In this document: positions 28,687 to 64,000 of the stretch, one piece after another
Position numbering within the stretch: position 1 is the stretch's first letter
How the letters are laid out: every line of letters begins with the position of its first letter
Made by a program: the position numbers and the translations under genes
The notes under the pieces: model-generated
The model's input: the letters and a program-made list of their open reading frames with translations, nothing else
Told to the model about the DNA's origin: nothing
Databases searched by the model: none
Origin: Muscardinus avellanarius
Taxonomy: Eukaryota > Chordata > Mammalia > Rodentia > Gliridae
Reading direction: 5' to 3'
NCBI GenBank assembly: GCA_963383645.1
Contig: OY726560.1
Span: 148,123,052 to 148,187,051, forward strand
DNA: 64,000 nt

Positions 28687-29390
28687 TTGGGCAGCAACCC
28701 TCGAGGATTGCACCCCAACAATCTTTGGCAAATTGATGTAACTCATTATTCCCCTTTTGGTAAATTAAAATACATTTTTGTATCAGTCAATACCTACTCC
28801 CAAGCATTCTGGGCCTCAGCCCACAGGAGAAAAAGACCAAACATGCTATTAGTCATATGCTACAATGTTTTACCACCCTCGGGTTGCCCGACCAGATAAA
28901 AATGGATAACAGACCATGTTTTATTGGCAAGGCCTTTGCTGTTTCCCTCCAAACCTGGAATATCTCCCATACAACAGGCATTCCATATAATCCTAGAGGA
29001 CAGGCCATTGTAGAAAGATTTAATCATACCTTAAAGGTTCAATTACAAAAACAAAGGGGGGACTTGTTACCCCCCACATGGCTTAGAAAAGCATTACTTA
29101 CTCAAAATATATTAAATTTTTCAAAATACAGCCCAGAACTTTCACCATTCCAGAAACATTGGTCATCCTCAATCACATACACAGCTGTCTTGGTGAAATG
29201 GAAAGACCCACTCACAGGCACATGGAGAGGGCTAGACCCATTGATTATGGCTGGATGGGGATTTGGATGCATCTTCCCTCCTGATGAAAAAAGACCCCTG
29301 TGGGTTCCAGCAAGGGACATTAAATATCTTCCGCCATGCATTAATGATTGTGATTCCAGAGAAAAAGAGATCCCTGAGATTAGCTCTCTC
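28687..29390 (+). pseudogene. pol: ERV integrase remnant
   Basis: DDE triad visible: Asp in WQIDVTH, Asp in KMDNRP, Glu in IVERFNHTLK. A frameshift lies near 28870. The C-terminal part (WKDPLTGTWRG...WVPARDIKYL) has the Trp-rich end typical of class II integrases. Cut by a SINE at 29396. Confidence 0.85.
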
Positions 29391-29395
29391 TTCTT

Positions 29396-29604
29396 CTTCT
29401 TCTTTTTTTTTTTTTTTTTGGTGGTACTGGGGTTCCTGGAAGCCCTTCTATCTCCAGACTACACTCCCAGACCTATTTTTACATTTTTATTTGGAAACAG
29501 GGTCTCCTAAGCCAGCGCGCGCGTGGCTGGCTTCGAACCTGCGCGATCCTCCTGTCTCTGCCTCCCAAGCGCGGGGATTACAAGCGTGAGCCACCACGCC
29601 CGGC
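29396..29604 (-). repeat. B1-dID SINE inside the ERV
   Basis: Perfect 15-bp target duplications tagctctctcttctt at 29381-29395 and 29605-29619. It is the innermost layer of the nest. Confidence 0.95.
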
Positions 29605-30885: not shown

Positions 30886-33800
30886 GTGGGAAACCTCTTC
30901 TCTGATCCTGTCTAATTGGGAGTTCTATAAGTTTCCTGGACCTGTGTATCAACCTCTTGCTCTATGTTTGGAAATTTTTCTGCTATTACTTCTTTGAAGA
31001 AATTATTGATCCCTATGGTTTCACCTTCTTCTTCTTTTCCCTCCTCTATTCCGATTATTCTTAGGTTAGCTTTCTTAAAATGGTCCCATATTTCTTCAAT
31101 GTCAAATTCCTGCTGTCGGATTTTTTTTCTAAGTTATAAATTATGCATTTGTTTTTGGAGTGATCATCTTCTAGGAGCAAGATTCTATTCTCCATGTGGT
31201 CTAATTGATTGTTGATAGTTTGAATTGAGGCCTTTACTTCAATGATTGCATCCTTTATTTCTTTTAGACTCTCTCTAAATTATTTTCGAAAGTCCTGTAT
31301 TATTTCTAAAGTTATATTCCTGATTTGATCTTCTGGAGATCTCTGAATTTCTGTTATCAGCTTCTGACATTGTGGGGTTATGGGGGCTCATTGCTCTATT
31401 GTTGTTCCTCTTTCTCATGATTTCAGAAGTTTGGGTCCTTCCCTGGATCACCATAACTTCACTTAGGGTGCTCTGGATCTCAAGTGTGTGGTCATCTCAG
31501 CCTCAACTACTCCTTTACTGAGCTGTATCACAAAGATCAGACCCAGGGAGTTAATCGAGACCGTGGGGGTGCCGAGCTGGGTGTTTTCCCACGGGGAGCT
31601 GCGACTAGGGTGTGGTATCTTTGCCACCACTACTCCTTCACTGCATTGGACTGCAAAAGCTCAGACCCAGGGAGATTATCAAAGCTGTGCAAGTCCCTGG
31701 GGGTGCAGTGCTGGGATTTCTCCTTTAAAGGCTGCAATTTCACTTACGGTTATTGTGTGCGCTGATCTGGAGCTGTCATGGGTGTGGTGAACTCGCTGCC
31801 ACTGCTGGCAATATGGCACCTCTGCCACGCCCTCAGCTGTGAGGCTGGTGTATTTCTTTTCTGGTTTTGAGCTACGTTCTGAGTCCCTGGAAGGCATGAT
31901 GAGCTTGGCCACTGGGAGTTTTAGACTTTCTTTGTGCTGAAAGAACTACTGAATTATACCTGAATGATCCACAGCTGCTTACTTCAGCTCCTTATTTACC
32001 TTTCCTCCCTCTCTGGAGGCTGGTGCTGTGAGGCAAGATGGCGCCAGCCACATTGTGGTGTCCTCCGCCACAATGTGGGCTGGTTTCTTTTCTGGTCTCT
32101 GGTTCTTCTTCTAGTCTTCTTTTTCTCTGTCCCTTGTGTTTACATCTCTGCTGATAGTGTTTTCTGGCTATGAAAAACACTGATTTTGTGGCAATAGAGA
32201 TTGAGTGTTAGCAGGACTCGTAAATGCTGCTTTTCTTGGTCACCATCTTCCCAGAAGTCTCTATCCCATATTTTTTAAATAGTCTGATATTCTCTATATT
32301 GTATTGTCTTCTCTATATTGTTGACTATATGGTCAGTTTTGAATAAGCTGTCTTATAAGAGTGAGACTCTATTTTCCCTATGTTATGGTCTACTGCAGAT
32401 GGTTCTTATTGAAACATTTTTTATTGTCTCTAATTTTGCTCAATCTCTTTTTTATTTAGAGTCTCATTTCCTTTACTGGTAGACTCTTTCATATCCTGTA
32501 AGCTTTCTAATATTTCATTTAAAACACCTTTGACCATATTGAATATTAAAATTCTGAATTTTACTTCAGGCATTTTTCTACAGCCTCATATTGATAGTCT
32601 CCATTGTTGTGCATTTGCGGATATTTATTATTTTCTCATTGCTCTTTCTTCTCATTTTCTCAGGATTCTTAGGTTTTTATCTCTGTTTTAGTGTCAATCT
32701 ACCCCTCTTTCTGGTATGTCCTATGGCTATTTGTTTTCCCTTTATAAAAAGTTCTTAGCTGGGGGTATATATTTGCCTCAATGAATTTTTCTCATACAAT
32801 CAGACTTCTGAATTAGTTTCTGAGAACCTCTTTAACAGTATCTACTTTTTAATCAGTTATGGAAAACTGTAGCCTCTGATAAACTGCCAGCCTTTGTGTA
32901 ATCTGGGTCAAAAGTCAGCTGGACCAGTGCCTATAATGTTCCAAACCTATGTCCAGCAGGCTGAGGTTCAATGGCCCAGGGATATGCTATTGTTCTTCTG
33001 GATATGATTACTTGAACTCTTGCATACCACTGGCTTCTGGCATCCATGGTCATTAGTCCCAAGCTCAGCAGGATCAGAGATTATGATGTCTACAGCCTGG
33101 TTTGCTTTGATTTACTAGGGACACCACTACTGTTCTGCTGGTTGCAAACTCTGGAATCATTTAAGGCACTTGCCTCTATCATCACTAGGCCCTTTACTAA
33201 CAATGAGTTTAGAGTTCCCATACAGGGGCTTTGCTGTATTAATCAAATTGTCCCAGGAATACTATTGTTGCTTCTCTTCTAGCTGTGATCATTTAGAATC
33301 TTGCTGGTCCCTGATCTGCCTGCTTTTGAAGTCCAAACTCTACCAGGGGAGAAATTGTGCTGCTCTGAGGCTGGAGCCTGTGTGGCTGAGTATTTTACCC
33401 TAGGAACATGACTGCTGGTTTGGTCAGCTATAATCATATGAGACCATAGGATTTCACTGGAGGTCTGGAGATTTATGGTGGGCCTGGTTGTAACCATTCC
33501 AGTCCCTGCAAAAAGAATCTGTCATTCCTTGGTCCATGGGAGTTCAGCTCCCTGTACAAGAATTTGCTGGACTTCCGGGAAGATGGCGACTGAGAAAAGC
33601 GGGGCTTAAGAGCCCCGCTAACAACAAATCTCCATTACTACAAAATCAGTGCCTTTCATAGCCAGAAAACACCATCACCAGTGAAACAAAAAATCACCAG
33701 GCTCCAGAGAGAAAGCAGACTGAGAACAGAGCCACAGAGGAGATAACCGGCCCCATGCCCAAGGACGCGGCAGATGTGGCAGCAGCGCCATACTGCCGGC

Positions 33801-34363
33801 GGCACCGGCGAATTCACGGGACAGCTACAGCAAGCCGAGGTGAGCCGCTGCGAAAACAGCCATACGGGATTTCTCCACGCAGAGAGCATCTAAAGCTCCC
33901 AGTGGCCGAGCTCAGCACACGCTGCAGGGATTCAGAGAGGAAATCAAAACCAAGAAGAAAAACACCAGCCCCACAGCCAAGGCCGTAGCAGCGGCGCCAT
34001 ATTGCCACTGGCGGCAGCAGCACCGAATTCAGGGAGGCCAGTACAGCTACATCTGCGTACGCAAGAACAGTGAGTCAAATTGCGGGCCACAGAGGAGAAA
34101 TCCCAGTACTGTACTCCCTGGGACTTGACCCAGTGGGGGAGTGGCGGTGGCAGAGATATCACACCATAGGAGAACGTGCAACCTGGCACCCCCCCACAGT
34201 CTAAAGCAGCCTCTATCGACTCTCTGGGTCGGACACTCTGTGATAAAACCCAGTAAAGGAGTAGTGGGGTCTGAGATACTACTGACTCGAGATCCAGAAC
34301 ACCTTAAGTGAAGTCATAGTGACCCAAGGGAAGAACCCAGAGAAGGCACAAACTTCCGAAATC

Positions 34364-35248
34364 ATGGGAAAGAGGAATAATACTGGAGCAATAAATGCCC
34401 ACAACCCCACAACATCAGAACCCGATAAAACAGAAAATCAAAGATTTCTAGAAGATCAAATCAGGAAAATAACTGTAGAAATAATAGAGGTGTTTCGAAA
34501 AGAATTCAGAGAGAGCCAAAAAGAGATAAAGGATGTAATTAATGAAGTAAAGGCCTCAATTCAAAGTACAAACAACCAATTAGAACACATGGAGAACAGA
34601 ATCTCGCTCATAGAAGATGAGCAATCCAAAAATGAACGCATAGTTTCTAATCTAGAAAAAAATATCCGACAGCAGGAATCTGATAGTGAAGAAATATGGG
34701 CCCATTTTAAGAGAGCTAACCTAAGAATAATTGGAATAGAGGAGGGAAAAGAAAGTGAAACCAAAGGGATCAACAATCTCTTCAAGGAAGTAATAGCAGA
34801 AAATTTTCCAGACATAGAGCAAGAGGTCGATACACAGGTCCAGGAAACTTATAGAACTCCCTTTAGACAGGATCCGAGAAGAGGATCCCCACGCCACATA
34901 ATTGTCAAAATGACCAATGTGGAAGCCAAGCAGAGAATCTTAAAGGCAACAAAAGCAAAGGGCCAAGTGACATTCAGAGGCAAACCGATTAGAATCACTC
35001 CAGACTTCCCAAACCAAGTTATGAGAGCGAGAAGGGCTTGGAGTAACATATTCCAAACTCTGAAAGAAAACAACTTCCAGCCAAAAATTTCCTACCCAGC
35101 AAAACTTTCTATCAAATTAGATGGAGAAATAAGAAGCTTCCATGACAAACAGAAACTGAAGAAATTTATGTCTTCAAAACCAGCACTAGAGAAAATACTC
35201 AAAGAGATGAACTACAAAGAAGAAACAGGTAACACACTCCAGAACTAG
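34364..35248 (+). CDS. L1 ORF1 protein, intact
   Basis: RNA-binding L1 protein that coats the element's RNA. From the first ATG (MGKRNNTG) the frame runs 294 codons; an open stretch extends 15 codons further upstream from a GTG but has no ATG. Coiled coil about residues 35-120 (IRKITVEIIEVFRKEF, NLEKNIRQQES), RRM region (LRIIGIEEG), then the C-terminal domain with RRAWSNIFQTLKENN and the closing PALEKILKEM. No frame breaks. Confidence 0.85.
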   Translation: MGKRNNTGAINAHNPTTSEPDKTENQRFLEDQIRKITVEIIEVFRKEFRESQKEIKDVINEVKASIQSTNNQLEHMENRISLIEDEQSKNERIVSNLEKNIRQQESDSEEIWAHFKRANLRIIGIEEGKESETKGINNLFKEVIAENFPDIEQEVDTQVQETYRTPFRQDPRRGSPRHIIVKMTNVEAKQRILKATKAKGQVTFRGKPIRITPDFPNQVMRARRAWSNIFQTLKENNFQPKISYPAKLSIKLDGEIRSFHDKQKLKKFMSSKPALEKILKEMNYKEETGNTLQN

Positions 35249-35636
35249 AGAAACAAGATTTTCCATCCAACAGAAAACTAAGATTGGTTATCTGTGGAGA
35301 TTCATTATTTATGTTAGTCTTTTACCTATCTCTAAAGGGTATTGTTTGCCTTTATTGTTGTTAACTTCTAGGATTTCTAGTTGGAATATTAATATACCTT
35401 CAGATATAGCATTTGGAAATATTTTATCCCATTCTATTAGTAACTGTTAACTCTGTTTACATTGTCTTTAGATATACAATATTTTTTTTATTTTTTAGGG
35501 AGTTCATATACTCCTTTGTTGCCTGTGTCATTGAAATCATAACCAAGAAATCACTGCCAATTTCAATGTTGTGAGGTTTAATGACCCAGATTTTCTCCTA
35601 AAAGTTTATAGTCTTAAGATTTATATTTAGGTCTTT

Positions 35637-35836
35637 TATTTTTTTTTATTTTTATTTTTTTTTGGTGGTACCGGGGTTCCTGGTAGCCCTTCTTCCTCCG
35701 GGCTACACTCCCAGACCTATTTTATATTTTTGAAACAGGGTCTCTTGGCCAGCACGGCTGGCTTCGAACCTGCGCGATCCTCCTGTCTCCGCCTCCCAAG
35801 CGCGGGGATTACAAGCGTGTGCCACCATGCCCGGCT
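35637..35836 (-). repeat. B1-dID SINE inside L1 derivative
   Basis: T-rich start, tggtagcccttcttcctccg, and ccaccatgcccggc at the end. A short gtcttttat duplication flanks it. The sister elements at 48200 and 61480 lack it. Confidence 0.92.
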
Positions 35837-36579
35837 TGTCTTTTATCTATTTTGAGTTAATATTTGTATATGGGATTAGGTAAGGGTCCAATTTTATTCT
35901 TTTCCATGTAATTATTATTTTTAACAATATTTAGTTAAAAGATTAATATTTCCACCACCAAATGTTCGTGGAAACCTTGTCAAAAATAACTTGACAATAT
36001 AGGGAAGAATTTATCTCTAGGCTTTTATTTAACTCCAGTGGTTTATATATCTGCCTTTATAACAGTACTACACTGTTTCAATTATTGTAGCTTTACATGG
36101 TTTGAAATCAGAAAATATATATCTTCTAGCTTTGTTCTTTTTCAAGATCGTTTTGGGTACTTAGAGTCCATATTCCATATTAGGATAGATTTTTTTCTGA
36201 AAAATAAATATATAAATATATGATAGTTTCACCTAAAAAATAGATAAAAAAATATTCTCTGGTAAGAAAGAAAGCAAAAAGAAATATTGAAATGTTATCT
36301 TTAAGTCATCAAAAGCTTGGTATCAGACAAATGAAACTGTTATGTGAGATTATCATTTTTAATTTTAGATAAATTGCCATAATACTAGATATCAACTACT
36401 AAGCCAAGCATGGGAGGGAGGGATAGGGAGAGAATGGGGTGGGGATTGGGTGGGGGCTGACTGGGAAAAGTGTGCATGTATGTCTACAAAAGTATGTATC
36501 CTACTATGATGTATGAATACAGTGCACCAATAAAAATAAATAAATAAATAAAAATAAATTAAAAAAAAAGAATTTGCTG

Positions 36580-40563: not shown

Positions 40564-41670
40564 GACCACATTTTAGATCTAGACTAACATACACTGGGAT
40601 AACATAACCTTCTGAGTATTATCACAAATAAATTGAGACTAGTGGGAAGAATTTGTGTCTCTAGATTGAGCTCTGCTCAATCAGCTGTGTGTTCCCTGAA
40701 AGGTTGCTTAAATTCTCTGAGTTTCATTGTCTTTGTTAAACAAATAGCTAAATCTCACATAGGTTTAGGGGTAGATTAGATTTAAAAGTGTGAATTGCAT
40801 AGAAACACATGAATTTTTTAGGTATAGTTGCTTTCCTTTTCCACCAATTAAATCACCATAACTGTGGGGTATGGGCTATCATTTATTTTCTGGGTTTGGG
40901 TGAGTTAGAAACCTTCACATTTGGTAGGCGGGTTGTCCTAGAAAGTGTGCAGCAGTAATTACACCCTGTGATACCAATATTTTTCTGGTCAGAGAAGTTT
41001 GTGATCTTCAGGCAAATATGTCCTCCTTCCCCAGAAGGCAGCAGCTGAGCTAGGTAGGAGGAAGACAGGACAGGTTTTCTGAAGGTTAAGTAAATGAGAC
41101 CCAGTTTGTCTAAGGTGCCAGCTATCTGGCCACACAGGTGTTTCATATACTTTCTTTACCTCATCTGGAATTTGGTATCACAAATGTGATACCAAAGTAT
41201 GGCCAAATGTGATACCACAGTGTGGCCAAAATCAAAGAATTACATGAGTAAATATTTGCTCTGCAAATATACACACGAGATAGGAACTTCCAAGTCTAGC
41301 CTTTAGTTTAAAGTATCCAAGGTTTCTGGGTCAAAGTTGAGCCTATGTTAAATAATGTACTCTCAGATCTAGAAGACATGGAGTCATTATCCAATGAAAG
41401 CTCCCCTTTAGCTTTTAATACTATGAAGTAGCTGAGGTGTCTGTTATCTCTTACAAGGCCAATCTTTGAATCTAGACTCACAATACAGAAGGAGTGAGCT
41501 CCAGAGGTGTCTGTTATCTCTTACAAGGCCAATCTTAGATCTAGATTCACAATACAGGGGGAGTGAGCTCCAGAAGTTGGTGGAAAGCAAGATTTGGGAG
41601 GTAGTTCCAGTCTCCTGCTGGCATTTAAAGGTCTCCTATGCATCCTGAACATTGAGCTGCTTCACCTTTG
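40564..41670. other. Intergenic flank, part of duplicated block
   Basis: 41400-41670 aligns with 1-210. A 68-bp unit (gaggtgtctgttatctctta...) is tandemly doubled at 41436 and 41504. The rest shows no gene. Confidence 0.6.
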
Positions 41671-42520: not shown

Positions 42521-43159
42521 TATTTTAAGCCAGTGAGATTCAAGGTTATAAAAATATTTCTTTAATAAATAGACATTTAAATTTTTTTTATCTTAAAACT
42601 CAAATCTTTTTCTGACTTCAATTAACTGTTCAGGTTCCAAATATCCAATCCCACCCTAATCTGTTTTACCATGAGATTTGGATGTTACTTATACATAACT
42701 GTAATATTTTAAAATACTTTTACTATCTCTTGACTTTTATTTATTTATTATTTTATTTTATTTTTTATTAATTTATTTTTTAAATTGGTGCATTGTAGTC
42801 ATATATCAATCACATTGGAGTACAAGACTTGAGAGGATATACAAGCACACATCATCCAATTAGCCCTCCTCCAGCCCCCATCCCATTCCCTCCCCCTCCC
42901 TCCATCCCACGCTTCTTTGGTGATTTACTTTGATACATTTGTTTATGTACCTCCTGCGTTTTAAAGAGGCTCCGTCCTCCAGTATTACATACCCTCTGAT
43001 TGGTCACATTAGTTGCTTCACTATAGGGCCCTTTCTATAGCTCAACCTCTTCCTGTTGCCCTTTTCCTCCTAGTTATTGCTGATTAAGAGAAGCGTCTGA
43101 TTTATATTTTCTGCGATATTTCTCTGTGCATGCTGCGTTGCAAGTACCGATCCCACTCT

Positions 43160-44450
43160 TGATGGTCCCAGTAGTGGCCTGACTACTCAGTGGACTGATC
43201 CAGACCTCGCTGGCTCAAGCAGCGGCCTTGCCTCATGGGAGGCCCTAGTTCTAGTCTCGCTGGCCCCTGCACCGGTCTAACCCCTAAGCTGGCTTTGGTC
43301 CCAGCCTTGGAGGCCGCAGGAGTGAACTTGCCTCATGCCAGGCTCCGATGCTGGCCATTGGCCCCTGCACTGGCCTAACCCCTCGGCAGGATTCCAATCC
43401 TGGCCTCGGAGGCCCCAGCACCGGCCTAGCCTCACGGCAGGCTCCAATGCCGGCCTTGTTGGCCCCAGCACCGGCCTAACCCCTCAGCAGGTTCCGTTCC
43501 TGGGTTAGGAGGCCCCAGCACTGGCCATGTCTCACGGCAGGCTCCGATGCCGGCCTTGCTGTCCCCAGCACCGGTCTAGCCCTTCGGCAGGTTGTTATCC
43601 TGGCCTCAGAGGCCCCAGTACCGGCCTTGCCTCACAGCAGGCTCCGATGCCGGCCTCACTGGCCCCAGCACTGGCCTAACCCCTCGGCAGGCTCTTATCC
43701 TGACCTTGGAGGCCCCAGTACCACCCTTGCCTCAAGTCAGGCTCCAATCCCAGCCTTGGAGGCCTCAGCACCCGCCTTGCCTTATGGCAGGCTCCAATGC
43801 CAGCCTCACTGGCCCCAGCATCGGCCTAACCCTCGGCAGGCTCCAATCCCAGCCTTGGAGGCCCCAGTACCGGCCTTGCCTCATGGCAGGCTCCGGTGCC
43901 AGCCTTGCTGGCCCCAGCACCGGCCTAACCCCTTGGCCAGCTCCGATACTGGCCTCGGAGGTCCCAGCACCGGCCATGCCTCACGGCAGGCTGCAATGCC
44001 GGCCTCACTGGCTCCAACACCGGCCTAACCCCTCAGCAGGCTCTTATCCTGGCCTCAGAGGCCCCATTATCAGCCTTGCCTCACAGTAGGCTCCGATGCC
44101 GGCCTCACTGGCCCCAGCACCGGCCTAACCCCTCGGCAGGCTCCGATCCCGGCCTTGGAGGCCCCAGCACTGGTCATGCCTCAAGGCAGGCTCCGATGCC
44201 GGCCTCGCTGGCCCCAGCACTGGCCTAACCCCTCGGCAGGCTCTTATCCTGGCCTCGGAGGCCCTAGCACCAGCCTTGCCTCACGGCAGGCTCCAATGCC
44301 GGCCTCGCTGGCCCCAGCATCGGTCTAACCCCTCTGCAGGTTCCAATCCTGGCCATGGAGGCCTCAGTAGTGGCCTTGCCTCACAGCAAGCTCCGATGTC
44401 GGCCACTGGCCCTGGCGCCCGCCTAACCCCTCAGCAGGTTCCGATCACTG
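43160..44450 (-). repeat. VNTR of 50-bp units in 99-bp pairs
   Basis: Two related half-units alternate: ggccttgcctcacggcaggc... and ggcctaacccctcggcaggc..., each continuing through tccgat, ggcct and ggccccagcac. Start points of the second type recur every 98-101 bp about a dozen times, with one gap of about 150 bp. Long open frames in all phases are by-products of the repeat. Confidence 0.92.
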
Positions 44451-44459
44451 TCTCTGTGA

Positions 44460-44940
44460 TTATTATTTAAAAGGTTCCAGGTGTAATGTATCAGATCTCT
44501 GCCTCCCCTGAGTAATGGCCACTGGCATTGCCACTGCCTCCACCATTTCAAATCCTTCCCAGGCTCTTTTTCCACTCTGAATGTTGTCCAGTGTTTCTAA
44601 GCATGCGTGATGGTAGCATTCGACATTTGGTGTAATTTCTCCAAAAAAATAAAGTTGGTAGCATCCGGTTTCTGCTTCTCCTGAATACAAGTCTCCACCA
44701 CCATCGAGGAGAACTCTTTCAACACCGCATTTCTCCTTGGTCTCCGCTAAACTCTCTCCTTACAGGTGATGTCTGAGATTCTTAACAATATAGAGAAATA
44801 GCAGTCCTCTTTCACGGCGAATTTTTCCATAAGTTCCAGTGCATTTAGATAAGTTTTGTCTGCATCTCCAGTGTCCTGGCATCCATAACGGCTTTCTTAC
44901 CTCCTCTTCGATATTTTTCTTTATCTTTTTCTGTTCTGGG
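44460..44940 (-). other. Non-repeated core of the composite element
   Basis: Holds a 75-codon open frame on the minus strand (44463-44690, MYSGEAETGCYQLYFFGEIT...). The composition looks coding-like, but I cannot name a source gene. It may be captured transcript sequence. Confidence 0.5.
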
Positions 44941-44945
44941 CCTGG

Positions 44946-45457
44946 TTTCTCCAGGGGTCTGGCGTGCTACGCGCAGTTTGGCCTGGGGCCCAGAGTCTCA
45001 TGACCCGGGCCCCAGCTGGCGTGCCCTGCGGGCGACCCCCGACCAGAACCCAGCATCTTACTGGGCCCAGTTTCTCCAGGGGTCTGGCGTGCTACGCGCA
45101 GTTCGGCCCGGGGCCCAGGGTCCCGGGACCCGGGCCCCGGTTAGTGTGCGCCGTGTGCGACCCCCGCCCAGAACCCAGCGTCTTACTGGGCCTGGTTTCT
45201 CCAGGGGTCTGGCGTGCTATGCGCAGTTCGGCCTGGGGCCCAGAGTCCCGCGACCCGGGCCCCATCTGGTGTGCCCCGCGCGTGACCCCCGCCCAGAACA
45301 CAGCGTCTTACTGGGCCCGGTTTCTCCAGGGGTCTGGCGTGCTACGCGCAGTTCGGCCTGGGGCCCAGGGTCCCGTGACCTGGGCTCCGGCTGGTGTGCG
45401 CCGCACGCGACCCCGCCCAGAACCCAGCGTCTTACTGGGCCCGGTTTCTCCAGGGGT
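44946..45457 (-). repeat. 125-bp GC-rich tandem repeat
   Basis: tttctccaggggtctggcg starts at 44946, 45071, 45196 and 45321, with a partial unit at 45444. CpG-dense, so it could act as the element's promoter; that is inference. Confidence 0.9.
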
Positions 45458-46204
45458 CTATCTCTTGACTTTTAAAATCCCCTTACCCGACACTTCCAAA
45501 TTGTTAAGGCTCTATGTCTTCCTCAATTTTAGTAAAATTTCTATTTTAACTTCCTCGTTCATTACCCAATGGGCTCTATTCCTTCCTTCATGAGTTCTCT
45601 GAGGCACTATGATTCTCTAAGTGGTAGTGAACATTTATCCCAGTGTTCCTCAAACAAATACATGGAACCTTCTCCAAAATAAATTACTTCCTAGCCACAA
45701 AGTGGGCACTAGAGTATTCCAAAAATGTGACATACTCCCTGTGTCCTTTCAGACCACAATGGAATAAAATTATAAATTAACCATAAGAAGATCCAAAGTG
45801 ACCACATAAACAGAAAGACTGAAGACTGAAAACTGTGAAGACTGAAAACCACATTGCTGAATGAGGAATGGGTCATAGAAGAACTAAGGAGTGAAATTAA
45901 GAAATTCCTAGAAACAAATGAAAATAGAGACATAACATAACAAAACCTCTGGGACACCTTGATAGCAGTATTAAGAGGAATTTTCATTACCCTGAGTGAC
46001 CACATAAGAAGAACAGAAAAATCATCAAATAAATAACCTAATGATACACCTCAAAGCCTTTGAAAAGCAGAAACAGTCTAACTCCAAAGCCAGTAGAAGA
46101 CAGGAAATCATTAAAATCAGAGCAGAAATCAATGAAGTAGAGAGTAAAACATAATACAGAAAATCAACAAAACCCAAATCCGGCTTCTTGAAAAAATAAA
46201 AAAG

Positions 46205-48925
46205 AGGCTACTGGAACAGCCCCGCTAACAACCAATCTCCATTACCACAAAGTCAGCGCCTTTCATAGCCAGAAAACACCATCACCAGAGAAAAAAAAAT
46301 TACCAGGCTCCATAGAGGAGGGGGTCTCAGAACGGAGCTCAGAGCCACAGAGGAGATACACCGGCCTCATGGCCGAGGAAGCAGCAGCAGCGCCTTACTG
46401 CCAGTGGCAGCGGCGAATTCACCAGATGGCTACGGCTACAGACCAACGCACTCAACAGCCCACCAGGCTTCACAGAGAAGCGGCGGACAGCAAGCTGAGG
46501 GACTCAGAATGGAGCTCAAAACCAGAGAAGAAATACGCCAGCCTCATGGCCGAGGGTGTGGCAGCAGCGCCATATTGCCACCGGCGGCAGCAGCAGCGAA
46601 TTCACCAAGTCCACTACAGCTCCATCTGCGTATTCAACAACAGTGAGTCAAATTGCGGGCCCCAGAGGAGAAATCCCAGTACTGCACTCCCAGGGACTTG
46701 ACCCAGTGGGGGAGTGGCGGTGGCAGAGATATCACACCATAGGAAAACGCCCAACCTGGCACCCCCCCATAGTCTAAAGCAGCCTCTATCAACTCCCTGG
46801 GTCTGAGACTCTGTGATACAACCCAGTAAAGGAGTAGTGGGGTCTGAGATACCACAGACTCGAGATCCAGAGCACCTTAAGTGAAGTCATAGTGACCCAA
46901 GGGAAGAACCCAGAGAAGGCACAAACTTCCGAAATCATGGGAAAGAGGAATAACAATGGAGCAATGAATGCGCACAACCCCACAACATCAGAACCCAATA
47001 AAACAGAAATTCAGAGATTTCTAGAAGATCAAATCAGGAAAATAACTGTAGAAATAATAGAGGTGTTTCGCAAAGAATTCAGAGAGAGCCAAAAAGAGAT
47101 AAAGAATGCAATTAATGAAGTAAAGGCCTCAATTCAAAGTACAAACAACCAATTAGACCACATGGAGAATAGAATCTCACTCTTAGAAGATGAACAATCC
47201 AAAAATGAACACATAGTCTCTAATCTAGAAAAAAATATCCGACAGCAAGAATCTGACATTGAAGAAATATGGGCCCATTTTAAGAGAGCTAACCTAAGAA
47301 TAATTGGAATAGAGGAGAGAAAAGAAGGTGAAACCAAAGGGATTAACAATCTCTTCAAGGAAGTAATAGAGGAAAATTTTCCAAACATAGAGCAAGAGGT
47401 CGATACACAGATCCAGGAAACTTATAGAACTCCTTTAGACAGGATCAGAGAAGAGGTTCCCCATGCTACATAATTGTCAAAATGACCAATGTGGAAGCCA
47501 AGCAGAGAATCTTAAAGGCAACAAAAACAAAGGGCAAAGTGACATTTAGAGGCAAACCGATTAGAATCACTCCAGACTTCCCAAACCAAGTCATGAGAGC
47601 CAGAAGGGCTTGGAGTAACATATTCCAAACTCTGAAAGAAAACAAATTCTAGCCAAAAATTTCCTACCCAGCAAAACTTTCTATCAAATTAGATGGGTAA
47701 ATAAGTAGCTTCCACGACAAACAGAATCTGAAGGAATTTATGCCTTCAAAACCAGCGCTAGAGAAAATACTCAAAGAGATGAACTACAAAGAAGAAATAG
47801 GCAACACACACCAGAACCAGAGAAACAAGATTTTCCATCCAACAGACAACTAAGATTGGTTATCTGTGGAGATTCATTATTTATGTTAGGCTTTTACCTA
47901 TCTCTAAATTGTATTGTTTGCTTTTATTGTTGTTAGTTTTTAGGATGTCTAGTTGGAATATTAATATACCTTCAGATATAGCATTTGGAAATATTTTATC
48001 CCATTCTATTAGTAACTTTTAACTCTGTTTACATTGTCTTTCGATATACAATTTTTTTTTGTTTTTTAGGGAGTTTGTATACCCTTCTGTTGCCTGTGCC
48101 ACTGAAATCATATCCAAGAAATCACTGCCAATTTAATTTCAATGTTGTGAGGTTTTATGACCCAGATTTTCTCCTAAAAGTTTATAGTCTTAAGATTTAT
48201 ATTTAGGTCTTTTATCTATTTTGAGTTAATATTTGTATATGGGATTAGGTAAGGGTCCAATTTTATTCTTTTTCATGTAATTATTATTTTTCAACAATAT
48301 TTAGTTAAAAGATTATTATTTCCTCCACCAAATGTTCATGGAAACCTTATCAAAAATAACTTGACAATATATGGAAGAATTTATCTCTAGGCTTTTATTT
48401 AACTCCAATGGTTTATATATCTGCCTTTAGAACAGTACTACACTCTTTCAATTATTGTAGCTTTATATGGTTTGAAATCAGAAAATATATATCTTCTAGC
48501 TTTGTTCTTTTTCGAGATTGTTTTGGGTATCTGGAGTCCATATTCCATATTAGGATAGATTTTTTTCTGAAAAATAAATATATAAATATATGATAGTTTC
48601 ACCTAAAAAAAAGAAAAGAAAAAAACATTCTCTGGTAAGAAAGAAAGCAAAAAGAAATATTGAAATGTTATCTTTAAGTCATCAAAAGCTTGGTATCAGA
48701 CAAATGAAACTGTTATGTGAGATTATCATTTTTAATTTTTGATAAATTGCTATAATACTAGATGTCAACCACTAAGCCAAGCATGGGAAGGAGGGATGCA
48801 GAGGGAATGGAGTGGGGATCGGGTGGGGGCTGACTGGGCAATGCATGTATGTCTACAAAAGTTTTTTTTGTAGCCCACTATGATGTATGAATACAGTGCA
48901 CCAATAAAAAATTAAAAAAAAGAAA
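46205..48925 (+). mobile_element. ORF1-only L1 derivative with inverted ORF2 piece
   Basis: Same plan as the elements at 33570 and 60767, slightly shortened at the 5' end. It has ORF1, the junction attggttatctgtggagatt at about 47853, reverse ORF2 text and a forward 3' UTR. Target duplication is A-rich (aaaaaataaaaaag/aaaaaagaaaaaag) and uncertain. Confidence 0.82.
46937..47850 (+). pseudogene. L1 ORF1, broken
   Basis: Starts MGKRNNNGAMNAHN. Open to 47473, where a small deletion near 47430 shifts the frame; the C-terminal domain continues in another frame with a further stop near 47650. Confidence 0.8.
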
Positions 48926-50880
48926 AAAGAAAAAAGATAGATAAATGACTAGTCAACCTAACCAAAAGAGAATCAATCCAAATTATGTTTAAGAGATTAA
49001 AAAAAAGAAAAAAAAGAAAATATTTCCACCTACAGTGTGGAAATCCACAGGACTATCAGAAACTACTTTGAAAAACTATACCCCAACAAAATGGAAAATA
49101 TGAAAGAAATTGACAAATTTCTAGATAAATACAATCTGCCTACACTGAGTCATGAAGATATAAAAACAAATCAATATCAAAGAGATTGAAGCAGCAATAA
49201 ACAACCTACCATCAAACAAAAGCCAAGGACCAGATGATTTCCCACGTGAATTTATAAAACCTTTATCAAAGAGCTAATCCCAATACTCCACAATCTATTT
49301 CATGAAATAGAAAGAGATAGGACTCTTGAAAATACAATATACGAAGCCAACATCATATTAATACCAAAACCAAATAAAGACAGCTCAAGGAAAGAAAACT
49401 ACGGGCTTATATTGTTGATGAACTTAGATACAAAACTGCTAAACAAAATACTAGCAATACACATTCAAAACCACATTAAGAAAACCATACATTGTGGCGC
49501 TTTGCATCCCTGGTTTAACATACAAAAAACAATATGTGATTCATCACATAAATGGAACCAAAGACAAAAATCTCATGATCATTTCAATAGATGCTGAAAA
49601 AAGTATTTGATAGATCCAACACTCATTTATGCTAAAAGCACTAAAGAGAATCAGAATAGAAGAAACATACCTCAACATCATAAACACAATATACAATAGG
49701 CACACAGCCAACATCATATTAAATGAGGAAAAACTGCAAGAATTACCCCTAAAAACAGGAACAAGACAAGAATGTCCATTATTACCACTTTTTAAAATGT
49801 AGTACTTAAAACTCTAGCCAGAGCAGTAAGACAGGAAAAGGAAATCAGAGAAATACAAATTGGAAAAAAACTAAAAATATCACTATTTGCAGATGACATA
49901 CCATACTTAGAAGACCCAACAAACTCAATCAAAAAGCTTATAGAACTGATCAACAAATTCATCAAAGTGTCTGAATACAAAATCAATCTTAAAAAATTAG
50001 AAACTTTCCTGTATACCAACAATAAATCCACTGAATAAGAAATTCAGAAAACACTTCCATTTAGGATATCCCACACAAAAAGTAAAATACTTAGGAATAA
50101 ATCTAACCAAGGAGGTGAAAGACATCTACAAAGAAAACTGTAAAACATTGAATAAAGAAATCAAAGAAGACCTTAAGAGATGGAAAGATCTTCCATGTTA
50201 TTGAATAGGCAGAATAAATATCATCAAAATGACCATTATTCTAAAAGTGATCTACAGATTCAATGCAATACCCATTATATTACCAACATCATTCCTCAAA
50301 GACAGAAAAATCAGTTCTTAAGTTTATTTGGAAAAAAAAAAAACAGAATAGCCAAAGTAGTTCTTAGCAATAAGAACAATTCAACCTACCACACCAAGGG
50401 GTATCACAATATCAAACTATACTACAAAGCACAGTAATAAAAAAGCATGGTACTGGCATAAAAATAAACACATAGACCAATGGAGCAGAATAGAAGACTC
50501 AGAAAAAAACTAGCACACTTACAGACAATTTATTTTTGACAAAGGGGCCAAAAACATACACTGGAAAAAAAAGATAGCCTTTTCAACAAATGGTTTTGGA
50601 AAAACTTATTAACCATATGTAGAAAAATGGAAATAAACCCTCACCCTGCACAAAAGTCAATTCAAGATGTATCAAAGACTTGGAAATCAGGCCAGAGATC
50701 TTGGAGCTCTTTGAAGTGTGCATAGGCCCAACACTTCAACACATAAGCACAAGTAAAAACTTTCTCAACAAGACCCCCAAGGCACAAGAAATTAAAAGGA
50801 GGCTCAATAAGTGAAATTGCATTAAACTGAAAAGGTTCTGTGCAATCAAGGAAACTATATAGAATCTCAACAGAGGATGC

Positions 50881-52368
50881 ATGTAGCAGAACTGGATTTA
50901 GGGGAAGTCATTTACACAGACCTGAGAAGACAGGCTTCTCATCGTGTCCCATTCCTTTATAGCATTTGTATATGTGGAAAGTCAAATCTTTTTGAAACAT
51001 CCTGAAATTTGAACCTGCTTCAGTTTACAAAATGACTTTTTATAGTCTTTATTGTTTCTGTTTTTGGTTTTTACTAATTAAATAAAAGAGGATGGAAAGC
51101 CCTTCACTGCCAGATCATGTAGACATTTTAGGGTCCAGCAATTATGCAAAATAAATTGTTTTTTCTATTCCTTGTCTTTGTGTTAGTTCATTCATTCAAC
51201 ATGGAAGTTATAAGAGTCTGGTATGTGTGAAACACTGGCCTAGATGGGTGCTGAGTTAAGACAAGGAGACCCAGAGAATCCCAGCTCTTATGAGCATGGT
51301 GGCTTTCAAACAAGGTGGCCTTCCCAGAGCATCCAAGGGAAACAAGGGAATGAGGACTAGAGAGTAATCCCTAGGGGGGGCAAAGGCTGAGATGGAGAAA
51401 ATTTGGTTGGAATTTCCAAAGCTCCTATTCATAGATTCTTTTCTTGAACTTCTGTACTTATTTTCATATTTCTCTTGCCAAATGTTCTTGAACTTTCTTG
51501 GTATGCAAAAAGTTTTACTGCTATTTTTTAAACATTAACCTATAAATTTTATTGGAAGATTAAATTATAATTTGACCAATTTTGTCCTACAAATGTGGTT
51601 ATTTTTATGATTTAATCTACATCTGTAACACTCTCAGGTAAAAGGTTCTGGTGTCCCTGTGTAACTTTTTAACAGTGCAATTTAAACAATCTAGCAAACT
51701 AAAAACATCTTAGTTCTCTACCAAACACTTCTTTTTCAGAGAACTTTGCCAAGACCATTTGGAGCCACTGAGTTCTATTTTTTTCTTATTCATAGTTTCA
51801 TCAGATGTTAGGGTCACTGATTGTACTGCTATGCTCTCAGCGGTACCCCAAATCCCTGTTATTGCTTTGTTTATTCTTTCCTATGTGATTTTGTTGAGAA
51901 ACAAGCTACTACTGTGGACTACCAACAATAAACTCAGAACTGTTTTTCTAGAATAAAGGTCTCTCTGGAAGCATTGTTCCTAATTCGTTGTTTGAGGGGA
52001 AGACCAGATGACAGAGAAACTGCCCGGGCACGTGAGCCTTCAGAGGTGTTTCAGGATGACTATTATCAAATCTTTGAAACAGTTTTGCATCATGCTCATC
52101 CCTGGACTTGATCAAAGTGTGAACTAAAAGAGGAGGCCACCTAAAACTTTCGCCTGAATGCAATGATGGTGATTCTGAGCATTACATAAGCACACAGAAA
52201 GAACTCCTCTTATCTACCACTTTCTCATCTTCCCATGGGCTCCATGGAAAACTTTTTCAACTCTATTTATCTAGACTTATCTATGATTAAAATTAGAAAT
52301 AGATCCTTGGAACCTGCTTTTTTCATGCCATTTTTCCCTGGCACTGCCCAAAAACGATAACACTCACT
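50881..52368 (+). promoter_or_regulatory. Upstream and promoter region of PNLIP copy B
   Basis: Collinear with 1270-2966 before copy A, without the SINEs found there. No gene seen. The last 600 bp are the likely promoter. Confidence 0.55.
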
Positions 52369-52377
52369 TATAAAAGG
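52369..52377 (+). promoter_or_regulatory. TATA box of PNLIP copy B
   Basis: TATAAAAGG, 57 bp before the exon 1 donor, the same spacing as in copy A. Confidence 0.85.
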
Positions 52378-52399
52378 AGCTCTCAGCGGCAACTGGTTG

Positions 52400-52426
52400 T
52401 CCGTGGAACCTGACAGATCTGCCACG
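52400..52426 (+). other. PNLIP: PNLIP copy B exon 1 (5' UTR)
   Basis: Same layout as exon 1 of copy A; donor gtaagt at 52427. The 5' end is estimated from the TATA box. Confidence 0.7.
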
Positions 52427-52562
52427 GTAAGTCAGGAGTAAATTTTCCAGGATAATTTATTGGAATTCTCCCATTTCCCCCAGAGATCTAAGACAACTTG
52501 GATTATAGCAGTATTTTCAAGCGTATTTAATCAGATTCAGTCATGTTTTCTCCTTTATGTAG

Positions 52563-52608
52563 ATGCTGCCCTTCTGGACACTGGCACTGCTGCTGGGATC
52601 AGTAGCAG
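52563..52608 (+). CDS. PNLIP: PNLIP copy B exon 2
   Basis: Signal peptide [16 protein letters not shown], two changes from copy A. The acceptor before the ATG is TAG. Confidence 0.94.
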
Positions 52609-55600
52609 GTAACAAAAGATATGCATGTGTACTTTGGGGATTCTGACTCTGTGCAGTCATTTCCAGGGCTGTGAGGGCTGAATCTATGCCAAGATAAGGA
52701 CAGGGAGTAGAGCCAGGAAGACACGGGATCTGGAGTACAAGGCATTGAAGTGTATTTGCTGGATAAAATCTTAAGCAATGCCCAATTTAATTAGAATTTG
52801 AGATAAAAAAGAAATAATTCAAATAGTGAACATATTACATATTTCTATAAAATATACTATTTATCTAAAGTTCAAATTTAACTTTTAATTTCATTTTCTG
52901 GGTCTAGCACCACTCCACTCAGAAATTCCTTCAGGGAGGGGGTTGAACCCAGGTTTAATCACCTACAACTCTATGACTGGCAGGATTCGGGGGCCCCCTG
53001 AGCTTTTGGATCTTTGTGAAATGGGGATAATGACCTCAGCCCCCTAATGGGATGACTGAGCGACTTAGGCATGATCAGTAAGTCATCTTGTCCAGCATCT
53101 GGCATGAGTAAGCTTTGGAGGAATACAGATCCCACAACAGCTGCAACTCTTACTCCTCTGTTGATCTGCACTTCTCCAGAGCCTTCCCTAGAGTTGTCCC
53201 TTTATACAGTAACATGCCAGCCCATAGTTGTGGCAAATCATGGATTTTTGTTGTTGTTGCTTGTTTGTGAAAACCTTCTTCATTGCAGGAATCCTTGATA
53301 ATCCTCAAACATAGGTCAGATACCTACATGCTCAGACTGAGTGGAGAGACAGAATTTTGCATGAAACATATTTCTTCATCCAAAGTTCAGAGCCAGATGG
53401 TAGTTCCTGGGAGTTGAAAGTCTCTGCACCTGCTGCGCCCACCAAGGTCTGGGACACAGGCTGCCCCATTCTTGAGAACCTGTGGCCCAGAAACCATATA
53501 TAGGTTGAGAGGCTGAAATGAGTCCCTGCCTAGGACTGAGCAGAGACAGAGGAGTGAGCCAGTCCCCGAGGCAGAAATGAGGAGCAGTATCAGGCGCTGT
53601 CTTTCAGAGCATGTAGGTAGGAGGGTGTTGAGAAATTAGAAGACTTGTCACTGAATGTGATTTTACTTGTCCTAGAGATCATAAAAAGGAGAATTCTGGT
53701 TAAACTAATGTGCTAAAAACACTTCTGGGTGATTTCAGGAAAAGAAGTCTGCTATGATAGACTCGGGTGCTTCAGCGATGATTCCCCTTGGGCAGGGATC
53801 GTGGAAAGACCTCTGAAAATATTGCCCTGGAGTCCAGAGGACATCAACACTCGCTTTCTCCTGTATACTAATGAGAACCAGGATAACTATCAAGTAAGAA
53901 TACACATTGTTTTCATCACTTAGTTACACGTGTTTTGTGCAACTAGTATACTGAATATTCAAATCCTCACCTAACGAGAACAAATCAGAAATTTTTTGTA
54001 GCCTGTTATGGGCATGACCTTTAATATTATTTATGTAACTTATTTATAAAAGGTCAATTAACTTCATGTTAATTTTGTTCTATCTTCATGGTACTCTCAA
54101 AAGATCATAAATATAAGGTAATATGCATATAATACATTCCACAAAAATATAGAGTTCTCCAACATTTATGCAAGTAGTCCCCATGGAAGATGTCTCAACT
54201 TAATAGTTTTTTGTCCTTACAATGGTGGGAAAACAATATGCATCCAGTATCAATCATCCTTTGATTTTTGAATCTTAATCTTTTCTGGGCTAGTGATATT
54301 CTAAACAAAACTCTCTTACTAAGCAATAGCAGCACAGCTCAACTCATAGTGAGCCACTGGTCGTGAATGTAAACAATGATACGCTACCTACACTATAGTG
54401 TATTGCATTGATGTTATGGTGTTTGGTAGTTTCAGTGTTTTTTCAATGCATTTCAACTTACAGTACTTTTGACTTACTATGGGTCTATCAGGACACAAAC
54501 CCATCATAACTGGAGGAATATCTATGTACAGATATAACTCACAATGTTGGATACGTAGGTAGATTAAGATATATATCAAATCACACATATACAAAGACTT
54601 CTACTGTGCAAAAATAGGATCTTAATGACAAATACGGCAGACATATCATCTTAAGATGAAAAACTGCAATATTTGTATGATGACTGGAAAGTAACAATTT
54701 GGGGATGATTATGAATAGCTTGGCTATTAAGGGAGAGTCCTTACCAGAGTCCCAAATACCAGTAATCTTCACCTATGACCTCCTTCCACATCTTCTAGAG
54801 AATAGTTCTAGAGAATATTGATATAATTAAGAAACTTAACCTGTAACACTTTTCTCCCCAAAACAGAGAGTCACTGCAGATTCATCAATTATCAGGAGCT
54901 CTAATTTCAGAACAGATAGAAAAACTCGCTTTATCATTCATGGATTCATCGACAAGGGAGACGAAAGCTGGCTGGCCAATATGTGCAAGGTGAGACCTGG
55001 TGAACTCTTAAGGGAAGATTGTCTCAGGAGTGATAATTAGGAGCCAGAACACATGGCCCCAAGCAGGAGGACACATTCTGGTCACCATGGTACTGCAGGA
55101 TCCACTGGTCCTTGGCTTCCCAGGGGAGTTCCAGATGGTAGTGTGCAGAGGGGCCCTGGACTAAAGATGGCAGGTATTTGGTGGCTCCAGATATTTGGTG
55201 GCTCTGGTTTACTACCAGAGATGTTTCAAAATTTTAGCAACAGCAAGCTGCATGTGGTGGCACATACTTCTAATCCCAGCATTTGGGAGGCTGAGACAGT
55301 AGGATCACAGTTCACAGACATCCTCAGCTACTACTTAGGCCCTTTGCAACTCAGTGAGACCCTGTTTAAAAATAAAGAATCAGAGCCGGGCGTGGTGGCG
55401 CATGCTTGTAATCTCAGTGCTTGGGAGGCTGAGACAGTAAGATTACACAGTTTTGAAGCCAGCCTTAGCTAATGAGTGAGGCTCTCAGCAACTTAGTGAG
55501 ACCCTGTTTCAAAATAAAGTATAAAATAGGTCTGGAGTATATCCAAGAGGTAGAAATTCCCTGGGTTCCACCCCCAGTGCCACAATAAAATAAAATAAAA

Positions 55601-58600
55601 TAAAGAATAAAAACATAGGGCTGGGGGTGTAGCTTGAAGGTAGAATGTTCCTTGGTTCCATCCCCAGTACTGAAAAAAAAAATAGCAATAGCAGCTGGAT
55701 ACCAGCTAATATAGGCCCCTGTATGTTCATTAGTTCATTAGCTTTTAAATTCTTTTTTTTTTTTTTGTAGTAGTGTTAGGGATTAAACCCAGGAGCATTT
55801 TACCTCTAAGTTACAACCTCCAGCCCAGTTTTATTCCCTATTTTGAAACAAGGTTTTGCTAAGTTTCTGGGGCCCTCGCTTAATTTCTGAGGCTGGCCTA
55901 GAAGCCTCAGCTTCCCAAATACAGGGATGAGAGGTGTGTGTCACCACTTCCAAGTGGCTTTTAATTTCCATGCAAAGTGCTAACATCTTATTTGTCCAGA
56001 CGATCACCTTCCCTTCCATTTTCCCAGGTTATCCTCCTCTATTCCAGTAGTGATGTCTAGGACATCATCATGGTTTTTTATTTCTGGTTTCTGTTTTCTC
56101 AGCAGAAGTGATCCTATTTTCTTTAATTGGCCTTTGGCTCTGTTCTCAGTGATAACACAGATTTAAAGGACAGAAAATTAAACGAAATATTTTTTCTAAC
56201 AACTAATAATGCTTGAGGAACCATATTGTTGATTCATTTATTTGTGTTTATTCACATTTTCATCACATTTCTGTGGCTGTGGTGGCATAATGCTGTAGTC
56301 ATTTCTTCAGTGGTGTCAAGAAAAAGACACAGAGCCCTTCCTAAAAGCATGGAATTTTTCACCTGTCTTGGACTCAAGCCATCCACAGAGCACAGGGTTG
56401 ATACCGAAGACAGAGGAGCACACGAGAGTTCATTTGGTTCCTGTGTTCCGAGCAATTAGTAAAAGCACAGTTCACCTGCTACACACTACTTTCAATTTGG
56501 TTCTTTTTTTTTTTTTTTTTTTTTTGGTGGTACTGGGGTTCCTGGAAGCCCTTCTACCTCCGGGCTACACTCCCAGACCTACTTTTACATTTTTGTTTGG
56601 AAACAGGGTCTCCTAAGCCAGCGCACGCGGCTGGCTTCGAACCTGCGCGATCCTCCTGTCTCTGCCTCCCAAGCGCGGGGATTACAAGCGTGCGCCACCA
56701 CGCCCGGCACAATTTGGTTCTTAATGTGGGAGGTTAATGATAGCTTTTTACTCAACAGTGAAGGAAAGAATTGTGCTTTTTAGCTCAAAGGAAATATACG
56801 TTTTATACAATTTATGCTTTTTTTTTTTTTTTTTGGTGGTTCTGGGGTTCCTGGAAGCCCTTCTACCTCCGGGCTACACTCCCAGACCTATATTTATAGT
56901 TTTTATTTGGAAACAGGATCTCTTAAGCCAGCGAGGCTGGCTCCGAACCTGCGCGATCCTCCTGTCTCCACCTCCTAAGCGCGGGGATTACAAGCGTGCG
57001 CCACCACGCCCAGCTCAATTTATGCATTTCTAAGATCCCCAAAGTATGATTTTACATGCATTTGATTTGCTTTGGCAACTCTTGTGTGATGATGGAAAGG
57101 AGCTAGGAAATCTCATTTGAACAAAGTAATACTTTTCCTTCCTTTTTCACTTGCCACTCTCATCCCTTCTGGTTGTGATGTCTAAGAAAACCATGACATT
57201 TTTCCATTCTGGTTGTTCACTGTTTCAGCAGAAGTGATTCTATTTTCTTTCCTTTGCCTTGGACTATGTTCCCAGTAAACGTGATTAAATCAGAAGACTG
57301 AAGAACTGGGATTCCAGCCCTGGCTCTGTTCTTAGCTAACACCCCATGCAGAGTTTTATGCTGCTATCTAAGAACAGCCAAACTGGATTCATGTTGTATT
57401 ATTTAGAAAAACTGTTTTCATTCTTTGAATTTTTCCTCTGTGGGAGAATAGAAGTGGATATGTTTCCCAAGATTGCTTCATTATTCTTAATTTTTTTTAA
57501 AGTTGGGAATATGTGTAAACATCTACTTGAACACTTCCTACCAGAACCATTCTTCATAACACAATGTTTATACCCATCAACATAGTTTTCAGTAGATAAC
57601 TGGTAGACTGTGCTGTTATGTGAGGTAATTTCAGTGATGTACAATAAGATATGTTCATCCAAAAACTCTGGTTATTCTTTTCATCATGAAAAGGCTTACT
57701 TCTTTACCTTCAATATATTTGATTTTAAGGGGTTCTAACAGTCTTCCATTCATTCAGTAAGTGTTTATTGAACACTTACTCTATGCCAGGACCAACATGT
57801 CCTGAGGCATACAGCACCAAGGATACAGTAGAGGAGACAGGCAATGTCCCCAGCTGTGTTCTAGTAGGGAATAGTGTAGCCCTATTGCATTTATGAAGCT
57901 CTAATAAAACAATCTGTTATATGACTTGTGATACAGTTCTCTCTGAATCAAATGTCTATGCATCCAATCCCAAGAAGGCAGTTCCAAAGATGGTCACACT
58001 CCATACTACACTACAGGAGGGATTTCATATCCATTAGAGACTAGCTGCTTTGGTCATAGCTTTGGGGTTGAAAGTGATTTGATGTAGTACTGGTCAAGAA
58101 GGAAATTTATCCTTGTCACAAAATGTATTAATTATCAGTTAAGATCCTGAATTACTTACCTACTTATTGCATCTCTCCCCTCAGACCATGTTCAAGGTGG
58201 AAAGCGTGAACTGCATCTGTGTCGACTGGAAAGGAGGCTCCCGAACTGGGTATACCCAGGCCTCACAGAACATCCGGGTTGTGGGGGCAGAAGTGGCCTA
58301 TTTTGTTCAATTCCTTCAGGTAACTAACTCCAGGATACATAAAGTCCCATGCACATCTTTTTCTGGATTCTATTTCTAAAACAAAACCTGGTGGTATGTT
58401 AGTTGATAAAGACATTTCTCTCCTGAGATATGGCTTTCAGCTTGGTCAAAAAAATGTAGGAAAAAATCTGTTTGGGCATAATTAATAACCTATTTAATTC
58501 AATAACATAGTTTGTATTTAATTAAGTGAACTTATTCAAACAATGAAGTAGATGGTATCTACTGAATTCTAGCAGTTTTTGTTTTAATTTTATCAGTTAT

Positions 58601-60732: not shown

Positions 60733-60766
60733 GTAAATAATGATGTGTACAATAAGATTGATTTTC

Positions 60767-63558: not shown

Positions 63559-63571
63559 AAGATTGATTTTC

Positions 63572-64000
63572 ATTGGGGTAAAGTTTGTGTTTTATTTTTC
63601 TTTATAATTTTATAGCCCTCATATTTTACAAGGTAAAAAGCTTTGACATTCATCCTTGAGACACAGGATTCCACTTGGGCATGTGGGCATGAGAAGCCTG
63701 TTAAAAAGAAACTGTATTTTCAATCAACTTTGTAAAAACCTAATTCAGGGAATATATTATTAAATTGCACTTACATCTATATGGATTCATCTGTTCCTTC
63801 TCAAGTTATTTCTCCATTTCATTTAACAATGACATTAATTATTATAATCTGTAAACATTACTTTATTTGATTGTATAACAAGTCATGAATACATTGCATA
63901 CATATTTTTGTGATGTGATCTTTATGAGTTCATACTAATTAGAGAAATATAATCAGTAGCTATATCCTGGTAATGACATTAATTTAGAAAAATAATATCT
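63572..64000 (+). other. PNLIP copy B intron 8, right part
   Basis: Aligns with 10660-11090 in intron 8 of copy A and runs off the window before exon 9. Confidence 0.85.

Follow-up and report, generated by a model that had tools for sequence, protein, structure and literature searches.

A probable SVA-like family of young, L1-mobilised composite retrotransposons in the genome of Muscardinus avellanarius

Is a 2.7-kb block with two tandem arrays and an L1-like end a composite retrotransposon of the kind that apes have in SVA and LAVA, or is it a reduced L1, the copy of a gene transcript, or a sequence spread at the DNA level? The question is raised by positions 42740-45457 of a 64,000-nucleotide stretch of the Muscardinus avellanarius genome (GenBank assembly GCA_963383645.1, contig OY726560.1, positions 148,123,052 to 148,187,051 of the forward strand), the whole of which was analysed and is called the window here. 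A sequence-only reading had proposed the first of these possibilities, describing an SVA-like unit of unrelated parts that had arrived in one piece. Dispersed copies with a constant order of parts and with target duplications of their own bear this proposal out, and we conclude, with a probability of roughly 0.8, that the block is a full copy of a young, multi-thousand-copy, non-autonomous and L1-mobilised family of VNTR composite retrotransposons.

The block is a minus-strand element enclosed by perfect 17-bp target-site duplications, CTATCTCTTGACTTTTA, which lie at 45458-45474 on its 5' side and at 42723-42739 on its 3' side. The two agree at 17 of 17 positions, as stated at first reading; when 2,000 pairs of places with the same spacing were drawn at random from the window, the longest repeat common to the two members of a pair was 11 nt. 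The minus-strand sequence of the empty site can be written as GATTT/TAAAAG and just as well as GATTTT/AAAAG. Since the element lies on this strand, the CpG-rich array of 125-bp units is its 5' end and the stretch at 42740-42782 its A-rich tail, which is of AAATAAA type (T-rich on the plus strand) and similar in make-up to the tails of other copies.

The 125-bp array (44936-45457, minus strand) comprises four full units and a further 23 bp, with 88% matches between units and a G+C content of 0.71. Its CpG observed/expected ratio of 0.70 (flanks: 0.04 and 0.13) agrees with its first description as a CpG-rich tandem array. A GGGCGG box is present in three of the four full units, and the array is a possible promoter. 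The length of array retained at the 5' end ranges from 99 to 524 bp in 19 copies of the family, and clustering of the 5' ends within the 125-bp unit is weak when starts are called from alignments (P=0.11); starts corrected by eye in 21 copies gave P values of 0.01-0.045 on three measures, on which we do not rely.

The array is followed by a unique core of about 0.5 kb (44437-44935, minus strand); a second copy is absent elsewhere in the 64-kb window. The suggestion that this core looks coding is not supported by the tests made. Each of the six frames of its consensus, built from 21 copies, is interrupted by stops, the three sense frames of the consensus have no Pfam match at E≤1, and a search with one sense frame of the core gave a PDB match at chance level (E 0.88) and no protein hit at E≤1. 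The longest open frames of the element (up to 209 aa, antisense) are confined to the tandem repeats, and sense ORFs do not exceed 75 aa. A plus-strand frame over the array, used in a protein search for other copies, recovered none among 538 candidates at E≤0.001.

Between the core and the 3' domain lies the VNTR (43140-44436, minus strand), with 26 units of ~50 bp and a G+C content of 0.66. The arrangement in 99-bp pairs that had been read from the letters stands insofar as units of types A and B alternate in ~100-bp pairs; it is broken by one B-B slip, and the outermost units are weakly typed as A or B. In the 22 copies with both ends the VNTR measures between 607 and 2,987 bp (median 1,447), and mean pairwise identity among these copies is 93% in its first 160 bp and 95% in its last 200 bp. 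Identity falls to 72-85% in the interior (22 copies or fewer), a contrast that arises in part because register is lost between copies of unequal length. The family thus has a central array of GC-rich units in the 30-50-bp range with conserved ends, as the SVA group does; we mean by this the same kind of array and claim no sequence homology. Outside the element, a 70-bp tandem duplication with 93% matches is found at 41434-41574 of the window.

The 3' domain (42783-43139, minus strand), which includes a G-rich tract, is 97.8-99.4% identical to that of 21 other copies. That the element ends in an L1-like 3' UTR with an A-rich tail is confirmed by a match to an L1 3'UTR within the window (38912-38564; 66% identity over 361 columns, E about 1e-36 in one comparison and 1e-38 in another), and the domain also matches another L1 3' end, in locus L013, at 74% over 234 columns, upstream of which ORF2-like sequence is recognisable by eye. 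Three ORF1-only elements of the window have just the last ~175-190 bp in common with the domain. Because the match to the L1 3'UTR is nearly full-length and homology to the ORF1-only elements stops at ~175-190 bp, a true L1 lineage is the probable donor (identity to the nearest L1 3'UTRs observed, 66-74%), and the ORF1-only elements are disfavoured as source of the 3' end. A 92% match to the 3' domain in locus L024, which at first resembled a donor L1, turned out to belong to the family itself, as an older copy truncated at its 5' end (L024:1887-2500, antisense), reduced to a few VNTR units and the 3' domain and flanked by AAAGTGCACATGCT and AAAGTACACATGCT.

The ORF1-only, half-L1-like elements of the window occupy 33608-36572 (+), 46215-48934 (+) and 60764-63559 (-). 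They are ~2.7-3.0 kb long and 89-94% identical in pairwise comparison, and they carry an L1 ORF1 and an L1-like 3' end, apparently without ORF2; Pfam L1 RBD- and dsRBD-like domains were found in the two whose ORF1 was tested, and target duplications of 12-13 bp at two of the three. The element at 60764-63559 interrupts just the second stretch of a local duplication, the two parts of which (2371-11090 and 51770-64000) are collinear and 72-88% identical. The window further contains, at 28764-29510 (+), a retroviral integrase remnant in which Pfam IN_DBD_C scores above the cut-off and rve slightly below it.

These elements, together with the nearly full-length match of the 3' domain to an L1 3'UTR, lend some credit to a derivation of the whole block from a single L1 by deletion, in which array and core would be a monomeric L1 5'UTR and the 3' domain the 3'UTR of the same L1, with the ORFs lost and the VNTR grown in between. 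Mobility would be the same, but the element would then belong with the half-L1s and would not combine unrelated parts. Monomeric 5'UTRs do occur in rodent L1s, the three half-L1-like elements described above lie in the window, and directly beside the family copy in L024 there is an element of ~2 kb (7880-9870) that starts near CTTCCGGAAGATGGCGACC and has a 3' end resembling that of L1 (74% over 180 bp); it is perhaps another non-autonomous L1 derivative. However, in a window with several L1-derived elements, neither array, core nor VNTR has a significant DNA match elsewhere (blastn, word size 6; best match 18 nt, E 0.64), and at the protein level array and core reach only E 0.23 against the rest of the window. 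The L1-like 5' end beside the L024 copy likewise has no match of at least 100 columns to array or core, and the short homology with the ORF1-only elements also counts against it. On these comparisons, which cover the 64-kb window and L024, we regard the L1 derivation as unlikely, though as the one serious rival of the composite reading. Exact patterns of the array or VNTR were absent from viral and from bacterial/archaeal contigs, collections that hold no animal genomes and so have no bearing on the family.

With the core as query, the genome from which the window comes (2.497 Gb in 104 contigs) yielded 1,180 candidates at first look, and all 40 that were scored, the window included, match at 98-100% over 480-481 of 481 bases. 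From these we assembled a set of 29 copies, the window and 28 of the other 39 scored matches, picked by core similarity. The order array-core-VNTR is kept in 29 of 29, and the 3' domain is reached in 22. In five of the others (L025, L050, L052, L054 and L056) the fetched piece ends before the 3' domain, the VNTR of L025 running to the last base; in L013 and L051 the VNTR breaks off abruptly in what appears by eye to be SINE-like sequence and the retrieved stretch lacks a 3' domain, possibly through deletion or recombination between SINEs.

Tag counts over the whole genome (both strands, up to three mismatches; reversed-pattern controls gave 0 for every tag) yielded 5,486 matches for the core and 7,721 for the junction of VNTR and 3' domain, which excludes a single-copy sequence. 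The array tag gave 5,274 matches, which exceed the number of copies since an array holds up to four units, and the array/core junction gave 2,342, below the core tag. Because CpG content and stringency are not the same for all tags, these counts are not exact copy numbers. The surplus of 3' over core tags is in line with 5' truncation, of which L024 shows one case, but neither this surplus nor the lower count of the array/core junction measures truncation cleanly. Linkage was followed on contig C1, where 57 of the 64 listed core tags were used, the listed junctions reaching 207.5 Mb: 30 of these 57 exact core tags are followed by an exact VNTR/3'-domain junction 1.0-4.1 kb downstream on the same strand, and a single pair in the wrong order or strand occurs within 9 kb. 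Starting from exact array/core junctions on C1, linkage was seen in 21 of 100 listed matches, again with one wrong pair. Both figures are lower bounds because both tags had to match exactly. The check proposed with the first reading, a search with the core, has thus been carried out on the element's own genome and returned many dispersed copies with the same order of parts and their own target duplications. In kind, the family is a VNTR composite, non-autonomous and dispersed, with a VNTR and unrelated domains in constant order, the unrelatedness of array and core to L1 holding within the 64-kb window.

Target duplications of 12-17 bp flank 18 of the 22 copies with both ends. In 15 of them (the window, L010, L011, L012, L014, L015, L017, L018, L019, L023, L027, L028, L049, L053 and L055) the duplications are exact and 12-17 nt long, and in three (L016, L022 and L024) they are 14-15 nt long with one mismatch; L009, L020, L021 and L026 have merely A-rich partial matches and no clear duplication, and by eye three of these four (L009, L020 and L026) are located in the A-rich portion of a SINE. 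Under a strict rule, by which a duplication had to be exact, at least 12 nt long, with at least two G or C and within 150 bp, 12 of 22 true flank pairs qualified against 2 of 462 crossed pairs. This flank test, the copy-specific duplications, the A-tails and the variable 5' ends inside the array leave hardly any room for a dispersed satellite or a segmental duplication spread at the DNA level, as the two internal tandem arrays and the presence in L009, within 10 kb, of another core accompanied by array and VNTR might have suggested.

The insertion sites point to L1 retrotransposition. A T precedes the cut in 13 of 15 copies (all except L011 and L027), and in six of the 15, with the boundary allowed to slide by one base, the context is TT/AAAA, the motif of the L1 endonuclease (PMC13174262): CACTT/AAAAG (L014), GGTT/AAAAG (L018), TATT/AAAAA (L022), CATT/AAAAT (L023), the window and L019. 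In four copies the target duplication is separated from the 3' domain by extra sequence with an A-rich run at its end (L012, ~0.53 kb; L011, 289 bp; L019, 172 bp; L015, 86 bp), which we read as 3' transduction, and template switching would do as well for L011, the extra sequence of which contains a second fragment of the 3' domain. Taken together, the copies bear the marks of L1 mobilisation by target-primed reverse transcription, namely target duplications, a TT/AAAA-like site, an A-tail, 5' truncation and extra 3' sequence. Locus L016 has a complex structure in which the duplication occurs twice on the 3' side: behind the first 3' duplication come a second, short 3'-end fragment (~7914-8050, sense) and then the duplication for the third time in all, as though one site had received two insertions. 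In seven of 28 copies (L009, L013, L020, L026, L050, L051 and L052) the element starts, by eye, directly after an A-rich stretch resembling a SINE linker, and since L009 and L026 have what seems to be the other half of the SINE on their 3' side, the A-rich linker of SINEs may be a preferred insertion target.

The cores of the copies have diverged little. In the window and 20 other copies the mean is 2.2 non-CpG substitutions per 465 positions from the consensus (0.47%), with no indels and a mean pairwise difference of 1.2% (0.2-2.9%), values from a set biased to young copies because it was picked by similarity; four copies carry a single substitution each, and the window copy carries 8. Ten copies from contig C2, taken in order from 36 listed places with an exact tag and skipping one of the scored 40, have a core divergence of 1.40% (range 0.46-2.33%; 60 differences in 4,298 positions, the tag excluded); the array lies upstream in all ten and the VNTR is seen in six, the pieces of the other four ending at most ~75 bases past the core. 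A third sample consists of the first six copies listed on contig C1 that have an exact array/core junction but lack an exact core tag. Their core divergence is 1.5-2.8%, the VNTR follows downstream in 6/6, and all six have four differences in common, at positions 171, 173, 275 and 424, of which 275 is variable in the first set too. The family is young and, given these common differences, includes at least two subfamilies.

A transcript of an ordinary gene, such as a processed pseudogene or a VNTR-bearing lncRNA, could in principle have been copied repeatedly by L1 from one or a few loci without propagating itself, considering the uniqueness and exon-like length of the core and the fact that L1 copies mRNAs in trans (PMC13174262). 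The tag matches in their thousands, the subfamilies, the different extra 3' sequences of four copies, as from several source loci, and the 5' array kept in 29 of 29 copies render this origin very improbable.

For the composite family as we understand it, the following cycle can be proposed. The CpG-rich 125-bp units would serve as an RNA polymerase II promoter, and the RNA would span the core, the VNTR and the L1-type 3' end, to be polyadenylated there or, to judge from the A-tails and the extra 3' sequences, at a downstream signal. The ORF2 protein of an L1 would take this RNA in trans, nick the target at TT/AAAA-like sites and copy the RNA by target-primed reverse transcription, steps of which target duplications, nick context and A-tails are the observed traces, and the borrowed L1 3' end may help L1 proteins find the RNA. 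The observed variation in VNTR length would probably stem from unequal exchange or slippage. The assembly of these parts would have been independent of SVA, of which the parts are different.

We lean towards the view that the SVA design arose a second time, independently and outside the apes, from other parts (a CpG-rich tandem 5' array, a unique core, a GC-rich VNTR and a borrowed L1 3' end), and that the family is a very young L1 parasite, perhaps active to this day, which numbers several thousand copies in several subfamilies. In that case, the joining of a tandem CpG-rich 5' end with a long GC-rich VNTR would be a recurrent solution to being copied by L1 rather than a chance product of ape evolution. 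The part that the VNTR and the CpG-rich 5' repeats play in L1 trans-mobilisation cannot be worked out from a single origin, and a convergent family made of other parts offers a direct test of their roles. The family would also be a young, length-variable and CpG-rich element in a genome where 264 kb (the window and 20 loci) held no full-length Alu dimer, 0 of 158 matches to an Alu consensus covering 85% of it; with B1 and ID consensus sequences, 5 of 129 and 2 of 4 matches over the same 264 kb reached 85% coverage, at identities of 74.3% or less. These repeats argue against an ape genome.

VNTR composites have been described as specific to hominoid primates (PMC4432496), and no VNTR composite outside hominoids was found in titles or abstract starts of the open-access literature, against which the novelty of the family is judged. 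Among known elements, half-L1s (HAL1), which arose several times in mammals (PMC5753468), resemble it in being non-autonomous and having an L1 3' end. HAL1 encodes ORF1p, whereas the family has no recognised coding gene, and its 3' domain can be aligned with a true L1 3'UTR for ~357 bp as against ~175-190 bp with the ORF1-only elements. With no ORF1 found in the element, either among the short sense ORFs or by Pfam in the sense frames of the core, we do not count the family among the half-L1s.

SVA elements, found in great apes and humans, show 3' transduction and an A-tail. The family is like them in being non-autonomous and apparently moved by L1, in having a 5' short-repeat array, a central GC-rich VNTR and target duplications, and in numbering thousands of copies; for SVA, these traits are documented with VNTR units of 30-50 bp and conserved ends (PMC5753468, PMC4432496, PMC13174262), and the human copies number ~6,000 (PMC13174262). 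Conserved arrays at both ends of the VNTR are described for SVA and LAVA alike (PMC4432496). The SVA/LAVA/PVA/FVA group has in common a 5' CT-hexamer array and an Alu-like region (PMC4432496). Tandem Repeats Finder detected no hexamer array in the window element, which nowhere has two CCCTCT units in a row, and in 29 of 29 copies it is the 125-bp array that precedes the core; a search of the window element for an Alu-like stretch gave just a 21-nt match at chance level (E 0.041) to an Alu consensus. Lacking these two parts, the family is, by its make-up, not a member of that group, although it resembles SVA and LAVA in its architecture and, to judge from its insertion marks, in its behaviour. 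Its order, array-core-VNTR-L1 3' end with a 5' unit of 125 bp, stands against hexamer-Alu-VNTR-SINE-R in SVA. Another parallel is LAVA of gibbons (L1-Alu-VNTR-Alu), a VNTR composite in which an L1-derived piece, an L1ME fragment, likewise lies 3' of the VNTR (PMC4432496). LAVA has the hexamer/Alu-like 5' region and the VNTR in common with SVA, where the family has its 125-bp array and core, and, unlike in LAVA, the L1 piece of the family is the terminal 3'UTR.
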